This document shows, one piece after another, positions 40,135 through 43,079 of a DNA stretch of 49,916 bases. Location of the stretch: positions 1 to 49,916 of the forward strand of contig JAJPWY010000069.1 in the NCBI GenBank assembly GCA_021205725.1, written 5' to 3'. The notes below the pieces were generated by a model. It was not told the origin of the DNA, made no database searches, and saw nothing but the letters and a program-made list of their open reading frames with translations. A program made the translations under genes and the position numbers. The stretch is from Clostridiales bacterium (GTDB lineage: Bacteria > Bacillota > Clostridia > Oscillospirales > Oscillospiraceae). Numbering within the stretch: the stretch's first letter is position 1; the number at the start of each line of letters is the position of its first letter.

Positions 40135-41754
40135 TCAGTTTCCCCGGGCGATGACCCTGTTCCGGGCCTTGTAGTAGCTGTAGGCCTCCTCCGTGGAGGA
40201 GATGAGGTTGCCGTCCCCGTCATACAGCTCCCGGTAGGTCTGCACCTTGTAGCCGGTGTAGGGGGTGGTGATGACCTTGCTCGTCCCGGAGGACAGGCTG
40301 CTGTCGGTGGTGTAGGTGGTGGAATAGGGGATGGTCTCCAGGGTCTTGCTGACGATCTTCACCGTGATGTCGTCCGTCTTGGTGCCGTAGATACTCACCG
40401 TCAGCTTGCCGCCGGAGTAGCTGGTGACGATCTTGATGGGATAGTCGGTGTTGTTGGCAAACTCAAACTCCGGGCCGCCCCAGGAGACGGTGGCGTCCAG
40501 ACCCAGGCCGATGTAGCTGGAGGCGTAGGTGTGGTTGGTGCGGGTGACGATCTCCAGGTTGGCGTAGAGACAGGCGGCGTACAGGGTGGAGGAGGTCTGG
40601 CAGATACCGCCTCCCACCTCCTGGACGGTCTCGCCGTTGTTGTAGGCGGGAGCCTCAGAGAATCCCCGGGCGGTGGTGCGCTCTCCCACCGTATCGTTGT
40701 AATTAAAGATTTCTCCCGGCAGCAGGATGGTGCCGTCGCAGAACTGGGCGGAGAGCTTCACATTGCTCACCCGGCCGGAGGAGCCGGTGACGGTGGTGGT
40801 GTAGCTCCCCAGCACGTCGGCAAACAGGTTCTCCTCCAGGTTTTCCGTGGTGATGTCCGGCTCGGTGTAGACCAGCTCTATCGTCACCTGACTGCCCGCC
40901 TCGGCGTCCTCCAGAGCCTGGGCAGCTGCGTCCACGTCAAAGGAGACCCCGTCGGTGGAGGGAACGATGGCATAGTCGTTATCCGGATCCAGGGTGGCGC
41001 TGACCGGTTCCACGTAGATCTGGTCATAGATGGCCTGGATGTCCAGCTCGGCGATCTCGCTGGAGAGGGTGGCGCAGTCCACTGTATGCTCCTCCGGCCA
41101 GCTGCCGGAGTTGACCAGGCTGGCCACCTGGTCGGTCAGGGTGTCCACGTCCGCCGTCACTCCGGCGCTGCCCTTGGTGATGACGACACAGTCGTCCTCA
41201 ATGGTGTAGGTGGTCTCCACGACGGTGTCCACCGCCTCGATGCCGGTGGCCTGGATGAGGGTTTTCAGCGTCTCCGTGTCGGTGAGAACAGGGGAAACGG
41301 TGACGGTCTGCTCCTCCACATTCCCCATCTGCACCTGGAGCCATTCCCAGCCCCGGGTGAGAAAGTCCCCGTGGCCCAGCACCATGGCCTCGTCCAGAGC
41401 GTCGCTGTAGTCCCAGGTCAGGAGGTTCTGCTCCCCGCTCCAGACGGTGACGCTGTAGGTCTCCCCTTCCAGAAGGATGTCCACCGTCCGGCCCTGATAG
41501 GCGTCCGCCAGGGCCGCATCCACGGCGGCAGTGGCCTCATCCCGGGTCATGCCCTGGACGTCCACCCCCTGAATGGTCACGTCCCCGATAATCTCGTCCT
41601 GCTCCACCTGCATACACAGGTAGAGATAGACGGCGAATACCAGGGCGACAAGGAGAAAAATCAAAATCAGAGCCGCCTTGAGCCCGGTGTGCTTTTTCTT
41701 CTTTGATCCGACCTTTTTCGCCCGACTGGGCGCAGGATTTGTCTTGCTTGCCAT
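40135..41754 (-). CDS. VanW / YoaR family cell-wall protein
   Basis: 539 residues anchored by one membrane helix (about 26-49) after a Lys-rich cytoplasmic start. The bulk is outside the cell. Two YoaR-type putative peptidoglycan-binding domains lie at about 55-290. The VanW domain follows at about 325-450 with the signature QEVGGGICQTSSTLYAACLY. The tail of about 80 residues resembles a G5 domain (DGDGNLISSTEE). VanW was first seen in vancomycin-resistance clusters, but most copies, like this one, stand alone without vanA-type genes; the function is not settled. It forms its own unit with a promoter at 41829-41857. Confidence 0.9.
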   Translation of the reverse strand: MASKTNPAPSRAKKVGSKKKKHTGLKAALILIFLLVALVFAVYLYLCMQVEQDEIIGDVTIQGVDVQGMTRDEATAAVDAALADAYQGRTVDILLEGETYSVTVWSGEQNLLTWDYSDALDEAMVLGHGDFLTRGWEWLQVQMGNVEEQTVTVSPVLTDTETLKTLIQATGIEAVDTVVETTYTIEDDCVVITKGSAGVTADVDTLTDQVASLVNSGSWPEEHTVDCATLSSEIAELDIQAIYDQIYVEPVSATLDPDNDYAIVPSTDGVSFDVDAAAQALEDAEAGSQVTIELVYTEPDITTENLEENLFADVLGSYTTTVTGSSGRVSNVKLSAQFCDGTILLPGEIFNYNDTVGERTTARGFSEAPAYNNGETVQEVGGGICQTSSTLYAACLYANLEIVTRTNHTYASSYIGLGLDATVSWGGPEFEFANNTDYPIKIVTSYSGGKLTVSIYGTKTDDITVKIVSKTLETIPYSTTYTTDSSLSSGTSKVITTPYTGYKVQTYRELYDGDGNLISSTEEAYSYYKARNRVIARGN

Positions 41755-41773
41755 GATATGCCTCCCGGGACAG

Positions 41774-41798
41774 ACCGGCCTGCCCGGGGCAGGCCGGT
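41774..41798. promoter_or_regulatory. Hairpin in the vanW leader
   Basis: ACCGGCCTGCC (41774-41784) and GGCAGGCCGGT (41788-41798) form a perfect stem with a three-base loop just upstream of the vanW ribosome-binding site. A CCCGGG in its top could pair with the CCCGGGAGG of that site. On the plus strand it is followed by GTATTTTGTC. Confidence 0.45.
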
Positions 41799-41828
41799 GT
41801 ATTTTGTCGCTGTTTTGGCGTCCTATTC

Positions 41829-41857
41829 AGTATAGCGAATCCGGGGCAAAAATTCAA
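41829..41857 (-). promoter_or_regulatory. Promoter of the vanW-type gene
   Basis: Minus strand TTGAAT (41857-41852), a 17-base spacer and TATACT (41834-41829). The gap 41755-42116 holds this, the divergent promoter at 41880 and the structured leader. Confidence 0.65.
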
Positions 41858-41879
41858 GGCCGATACCCCTGCTGAAACC

Positions 41880-41908
41880 TTGCAAATTCTGAATTTTGTT
41901 GGTATAAT
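41880..41908 (+). promoter_or_regulatory. Strong promoter upstream of the structured leader
   Basis: TTGCAA (41880-41885), a 17-base spacer and consensus TATAAT (41903-41908) with TGG before it (extended -10). Transcription would start near 41915. Confidence 0.8.
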
Positions 41909-41921
41909 ATCGTCAGCGAAA

Positions 41922-42083
41922 AAACGCAGTCCGTTCACCCGGCTGTGCGATGGTTCGAAATGCGCTCAGGGGTAGTTTACCGACTCTGAGGGCAGATGAA
42001 CCATTGTAAGATATTCAGAAACAGGAAACGCTCGCCGCTTCCTGTTTGCTCTGTGTAAGACAAAGGGAAAACGGACGGCGTTT
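41922..42083 (+). ncRNA. Unidentified structured RNA or leader, three-way junction
   Basis: By hand it folds as follows. P1 is AAACGC-A-GTCCGTT (41922-41935) with AACGGAC-G-GCGTTT (42070-42083). P2 is TGCGATGGTTC (41946-41956) with GAACCATTGTA (41998-42008), topped by CTCAG/CTGAG (41965-41969, 41986-41990) and GGTA/TACC. P3 is AAACAGGAA (42019-42027) with TTCCTGTTT (42039-42047). It lies between a strong promoter and the glucokinase start, 33 bases before the ATG. It could be a riboswitch-like leader, a 6S-type RNA or another small RNA. It matches no riboswitch consensus I know. Confidence 0.5.
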
Positions 42084-42116
42084 CAAAAACAAAATATGCC
42101 CTGGAGGGAATGCACT

Positions 42117-43079
42117 ATGCGCTACTTTATCGGAATAGACATTGGCGGAACCAACATTGCCGTGGGCGTTGTGGATGAAGAGAAAAATATGCTGAAAAAG
42201 CTCAGCGTCCCCACCGGGGCAGACCGGAAGGCGGACGCCCTGATCGACGACATGGTGGCCTCCGTCCGGGCGGTGCTGGAGCTGGCGGGGATGACCCTGG
42301 CGGACATCAGCTCCATCGGCATCGGCGTGCCCGGAGCGGTGACGCAGGACGGCAACGTCATCCAGGCGGTGAACCTGGGCTGGAAGAACCTGCCCCTGCA
42401 GGAGATCATGTCCTCCCGGCTGGGTCTGCCCGTCTACCTGGGCAACGACGCCGACTGCGCCGCCCTGGGCGAGGTGGTGGCCGGCAGCGGGGCCAACTGC
42501 AACAGCGCCCTGATGATTACCCTGGGCACTGGCATCGGCGGCGGCTTTATCGTCAACGGCAAGATTTTCAGCGGCTGCACCGGTCAGGGCACCGAGCCGG
42601 GTCACTTCACCTTCTGCTACGGCGGGGAGCTGTGCGGCTGCGGCAAGCGGGGCTGCTTTGAGGCGTACACCTCCGCCACCGCCCTCATCCGTCAGACCCG
42701 CCGGGCCATGGAGAAGAACCCCGACTCCAAAATGTGGGCGCTGGTGGACGGAGACATCGACAAGGTCAACGGCAAGGTGCCCTTCGACGCCGCCAAGCTG
42801 GACGACGGCACCGCCCGGGCGGTGGTGGCCCAGTACATCGACTACCTGGCCATGGGCATTGCGGGCATCGTGGACACCTTCCGGCCGGAGCTGGTCATTA
42901 TGGGCGGCGGCATCTGCAACCAGGGAGACTATCTCATGATCCCCCTCAACGAGGGCATCCGGAAATACTCCTTCGCCGCAGACGAGTTCCCGCCTCCTCC
43001 CGCCGTCCGGGCCACCCTGGGCAACGACGCCGGTATCATCGGTGCAGCGGCTCTCCAGATGTCCATGGAGAAGAAGTAA
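42117..43079 (+). CDS. glcK: ROK family glucokinase
   Basis: Phosphorylates glucose (EC 2.7.1.2) or a related hexose with ATP in the cytosol. The 320 residues show the ROK pattern: phosphate motif GIDIGGTNIAVGVVD at the N-terminus, GVPGAV near 75, GNDADCAALGE near 110, GTGIGGGFIVNG near 142, and the zinc site ELCGCGKRGCFEAYTSA with its preceding PGH. The insertion after that site is typical of Clostridial GlcK. ATG 42117 follows CTGGAGGGAA. It is a single-gene unit behind a 200-base leader. Glucose is the likely substrate; ROK kinases for other sugars look similar. Confidence 0.9.
   Translation: MRYFIGIDIGGTNIAVGVVDEEKNMLKKLSVPTGADRKADALIDDMVASVRAVLELAGMTLADISSIGIGVPGAVTQDGNVIQAVNLGWKNLPLQEIMSSRLGLPVYLGNDADCAALGEVVAGSGANCNSALMITLGTGIGGGFIVNGKIFSGCTGQGTEPGHFTFCYGGELCGCGKRGCFEAYTSATALIRQTRRAMEKNPDSKMWALVDGDIDKVNGKVPFDAAKLDDGTARAVVAQYIDYLAMGIAGIVDTFRPELVIMGGGICNQGDYLMIPLNEGIRKYSFAADEFPPPPAVRATLGNDAGIIGAAALQMSMEKK

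Follow-up and report, generated by a model that had tools for sequence, protein, structure and literature searches.

The glucokinase gene glcK of this bacterium is preceded by a leader that is predicted to fold into a three-way junction. With confidence a little better than even, we interpret it as a structured 5' untranslated leader of the glcK mRNA, which evolved in one small clade and acts in cis on glcK expression. Conservation of the promoter-like site, of the P1/P2/P3 fold and of the linkage to glcK is shown computationally. The leader is a lineage-specific instance of a general class, the structured mRNA leaders, and is undescribed as far as searched. Because it occurs in only six closely related gut bacteria and belongs to no known family, it is probably a recently evolved, local control element of one gene and not a widespread new RNA class. 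A previous sequence-only reading had proposed an undescribed leader element. That proposal holds for the conserved stems, the lack of an Rfam match and the distinction from 6S RNA, and is narrowed by the confinement of the element to six species of one genus.

The glcK leader and its fold

The window, meaning the whole stretch of 49,916 nucleotides that was analysed, contains the leader region at 41909-42116 on the plus strand, directly before the ROK-family glucokinase gene, whose start ATG lies at 42117. The extended -10 promoter claimed ahead of the leader was located as TTGCAA-17-TATAAT, with a TG preceding the -10 element. The features of the locus are as follows.

41880-41908, plus strand: glcK promoter, -35 TTGCAA, 17-nt spacer, extended -10 TGGTATAAT
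41922-42083, plus strand: structured leader element with three-way junction, 162 nt
41922-41935, plus strand: 5' strand of P1, AAACGCAGTCCGTT, with invariant core GCAGTCCG
41948-41957, plus strand: 5' strand of P2
41969-41987, plus strand: apical hairpin of the P2 arm, 41969-41973 paired with 41983-41987
41997-42006, plus strand: 3' strand of P2
42019-42047, plus strand: P3 hairpin, AAACAGGAA-ACGCTCGCCGC-TTCCTGTTT, within a stretch of about 35 nt that is nearly invariant
42025-42084, plus strand: alternative pairing P3*, 42025-42048 with 42061-42084, which excludes P1 and P3
42070-42083, plus strand: 3' strand of P1, AACGGACGGCGTTT, copy 2 of CGGAC[A/G]GC
42101-42109, plus strand: ribosome-binding site GGAGGG, invariant across the six element-bearing species
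42117-43079, plus strand: glcK, ROK-family glucokinase, 320 aa, TIGR00744 match

The glucokinase matches TIGR00744 with an E-value of 3.7e-76 and 256.4 bits, slightly below the curated cut-off of 260.35. Structurally, the architecture that had been drawn by hand is borne out. The closing stem P1, read from the sequence, has 13 standard pairs and one A-G mismatch and spans 162 nt, and 33 nt separate the end of the element from the glcK ATG. The long arm P2 (41948-41957 with 41997-42006) contains the G-U pairs and the apical hairpin, and the short second arm is P3 (42019-42027 with 42039-42047). Region 41909-42116 folds at -74.8 kcal/mol, compared with -56.1 +/- 4.4 for shuffled sequences (z -4.2; 0 of 200 as low), and the 162-nt core alone reaches z -6.2 against its shuffles. 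The centroid structure of the region is the P1/P2/P3 fold described previously. The minimum-energy fold is an alternative, in which the interior of P3 pairs with 42061-42084 and replaces both P1 and P3.

Conservation across six species and origin

The element is found in 6 of the 32 genomes of the genus (the present genome, G000, together with G005, G007, G015, G021 and G023), each time as a single copy directly before glcK. The glcK proteins of these species form one supported group (97/99). Sister species (G003, G018, G009, G025, G011 and G012) have the same promoter region or a similar one, followed by glcK leaders of 55-114 nt that fold no better than shuffled sequence. The idea that the sister leaders are shorter versions of the element was rejected, with z between -0.4 and +1.9 in six of seven; the seventh, in G030, is cut by a contig end and has z -2.3. 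Since the sisters have a similar promoter, the same gene and a plain short leader, a position on the tree can be assigned to the gain of the folded leader, and this gain can be tested. Single-clade structured leaders of this kind illustrate how cis-regulatory RNAs arise. As a separate observation, three glcK leaders without the element (L077, L078 and L008) have in common a short motif like ATTGTnCTTTTyyCACACAG.

A covariance model search of 400 genomes from the family and 394 from the order returned only members of the element's own clade above noise; the model was built from six close sequences and run with the stricter filters of Infernal, so distant relatives could be missed. Weak matches in G403, G425, G431 and G442 were rejected as distant relatives: all lie at gene ends, and those in G425 and G442 include an ordinary terminator hairpin. 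In the searches of genus, family and order genomes, no copies were found before other sugar genes and none away from glcK. Additionally, a mobile, repeated or dispersed element was rejected on the single copy per genome, and a phage or plasmid origin because no similar DNA was found.

Among the six species, unconstrained RNAalifold recovers P1, P2, the apical hairpin and P3 from the alignment, with compensatory changes, so that the stems are indeed conserved in relatives. The named structure has 96.9% of its cells paired, versus 30-49% when the partners are slid. Five pairs change on both sides: two of the seven core pairs of P2, two of the five pairs of the apical hairpin (none of which is invariant) and one pair of P1. 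The observed covariation score is reached by 10 of 500 shuffles of the 3' letters, a modest signal because only six sequences are available. P1 and P3 scarcely vary, and on the alignment they are backed by conservation, not by covariation.

Column shuffles that preserved conservation and gap patterns were as low as the observed consensus energy in 1 of 500 cases for alignment A3, in 1-2 of 500 for A2 and in 8-32 of 500 when the leaders were taken whole and untrimmed (A1). Without P3 the figure is 2-4 of 500, and for the P2 arm alone 5-8 of 500. The A3 figures lean towards structure because of trimming and copy choice: A3 omits the 14-nt insert that G000 and G007 have before the 3' strand of P1, as well as most of the hairpin-forming insert of G015, and it pairs P1 of G023 with copy 1. 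RNAalifold keeps P2 and P3 and loses P1 on A2, which has no internal trimming, and recovers all three stems on A1. The consensus fold differs from the predicted minimum in G007 and G015.

The 5' strand of P1, GCAGTCCG, does not vary among the six species, and the sequence that pairs with it, CGGAC[A/G]GC, is found at two neighbouring places. Copy 2 is retained in G000 and G007 (copy 1 being decayed, by eye, in G000), copy 1 in G021 and G015 and both in G023, while G005 has a single fused copy left by a deletion. That one copy or the other always provides a partner suggests, on inspection by eye, that the stem is under selection.

These patterns bear on another account, in which a structured sequence entered the leader once and was kept by descent, serving at most as a 5' stabiliser with no regulated switching. 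Such a passive insertion would fit the single origin in one clade, the sister species that manage without the element, and the indels of about 14 and 60 nt that are tolerated inside it. However, P3 with its flanks stays almost unchanged across about 35 nt whereas the P2 loops have strongly diverged, P2 has compensatory changes, and P1 is retained through alternative copies. We consider passive insertion unlikely, while giving it some weight.

Alternatively, P3 could be invariant because it is a DNA operator downstream of the promoter, with a transcription factor binding its 9-nt inverted arms across an 11-nt spacer. The near-perfect invariance of both arms agrees with this. However, the genome has no second exact copy of the arms and only scattered sites with two mismatches, so no regulon is indicated. 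The loop and 3' flank of P3 are as invariant as its arms, and P1 and P2 would be left unexplained. An operator is a very improbable explanation.

Known RNA families and competing pairings

No Rfam 15 family matched the window over its gathering threshold, and the weak matches near the leader are at chance level, in agreement with the earlier reading, which matched the leader to no riboswitch consensus. ARAGORN found neither tRNA nor tmRNA. A leader peptide was rejected: the 19-codon frame from 41950 is cut to ATG-GCC-TAA in G007 and lacks an ATG in G021, and a stop or indels interrupt the frames that run across P3. The open-licence literature yielded no paper describing an RNA leader for the glucokinase of these bacteria.

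The proposed 6S alternative did not survive. The leader resembles 6S RNA (RF00013) in its closing stem, long arm, 3'-side hairpin and length of about 160-200 nt, but it has no covariance-model match and runs into a coding gene. No 6S match appears in 41700-42300 even at E 5. The canonical 6S RNA of this genome is at G000:C39:55994-56188 (locus L001; 75.8 bits), the only 6S match in the whole genome at E <= 0.001. As RF00013 does not fit and 6S RNA lies at another locus, 6S is rejected.

Neither a conserved terminator nor a conserved block of the ribosome-binding site was found in the leaders of the six species. P3 was rejected as a terminator in this species (index -16.4), and a positive index occurs only in G021 (10.3) and G015 (8.0), where a hairpin and TTTT follow P1. 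These hairpins, together with the element's own promoter and its closure by P1, are what a separate small RNA would predict, whether 6S-like or trans-acting, with its gene before glcK by chance. This is quite improbable, because the element is always directly before glcK, never away from it, and in this species no such terminator lies between the two; the 6S results also stand against it. In its own right, the extra hairpin of G021 and G015 (L073, L074) has 12 bp, ends in TTTTC and sits after P1 and before the glcK start. The differences between the two copies preserve base pairing, and its 3' arm is missing in the other four species.

The structured glcK leader may also adopt a second fold. 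This fold, P3*, joins the P3 interior GAAACGCTCGCCGCTTCCTG to the stretch that lies after P3 and ahead of the ribosome-binding site. This pairing beats shuffled segments in five of the six species (0-20 of 500 as good) and fails in G015; four of the five share the same sequence and are close relatives. The partner segment of G021 differs from that of G000 yet pairs even better with the P3 interior. The ensemble energy gap between state A (P1 and P3) and state B (P3*) is 0.6 kcal/mol in G000, 1.3 in G023 and 0.3 in G021, while G005 favours P1 and P3, G007 favours P3* and G015 is mixed. The two near-isoenergetic folds modelled in three species suggest a two-state attenuator. The predicted accessibility of the ribosome-binding site differs little between the states. 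In having its own promoter, a folded leader near the ribosome-binding site and mutually exclusive pairings, the leader is like the structured leaders and attenuators of Firmicutes; it is unlike them in having no strong intrinsic terminator in this species and in being confined to six species.

A possible course of action can be outlined. P2 and P3 would form while the RNA is being transcribed. The stretch immediately ahead of the ribosome-binding site would then either close P1 (state A) or capture the P3 interior (state B). The balance between A and B may, in the manner of an attenuator, alter the amount of full-length, stable or translatable glcK mRNA, and could be tipped by a protein, a metabolite or the speed of transcription or translation. 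In its most specific form, which we regard as a long shot, the leader would be a young clade-specific two-state switch that responds to a sugar-related signal, with P1 and the P3 interior as rivals for a single 3' strand beside the glucokinase ribosome-binding site.

A riboswitch that senses glucose, glucose-6-phosphate or a similar metabolite would accord with the three-way junction, the two competing folds, the position before a sugar kinase and the invariant P3 block. TPP and purine type riboswitches contain a three-way junction, and the glcK leader is like them in placing a closing stem and two arms before a metabolic gene; it is unlike them in lacking an Rfam match and a conserved junction core and in its narrow distribution. 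The confinement to six species, with no copies found ahead of other sugar genes, argues against a classical riboswitch class, and conservation is highest in a plain hairpin rather than in a junction core. A riboswitch is very unlikely. Should the leader indeed switch, this glucokinase gene would be one of the few of its kind under RNA control; should it not, the element would usefully illustrate how a structured insertion, judged by its conservation alone, could be mistaken for a riboswitch.

Genes flanking glcK

Downstream of glcK lies metG. Judging by a terminator-like hairpin 3' of glcK and a promoter-like site ahead of metG, glcK appears to form a transcription unit of its own. The upstream neighbour is a VanW-domain gene (40135-41754, minus strand), whose 5' untranslated region has a perfect 12-bp hairpin at window positions 41774-41798, between a promoter-like site and the start codon. 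Related species retain a hairpin at this place with compensating changes, for example GGCC/GGCC to GTC/GAC. A weak Rfam match to PtaRNA1 (41748-41804, below gathering) overlaps the 12-bp hairpin.
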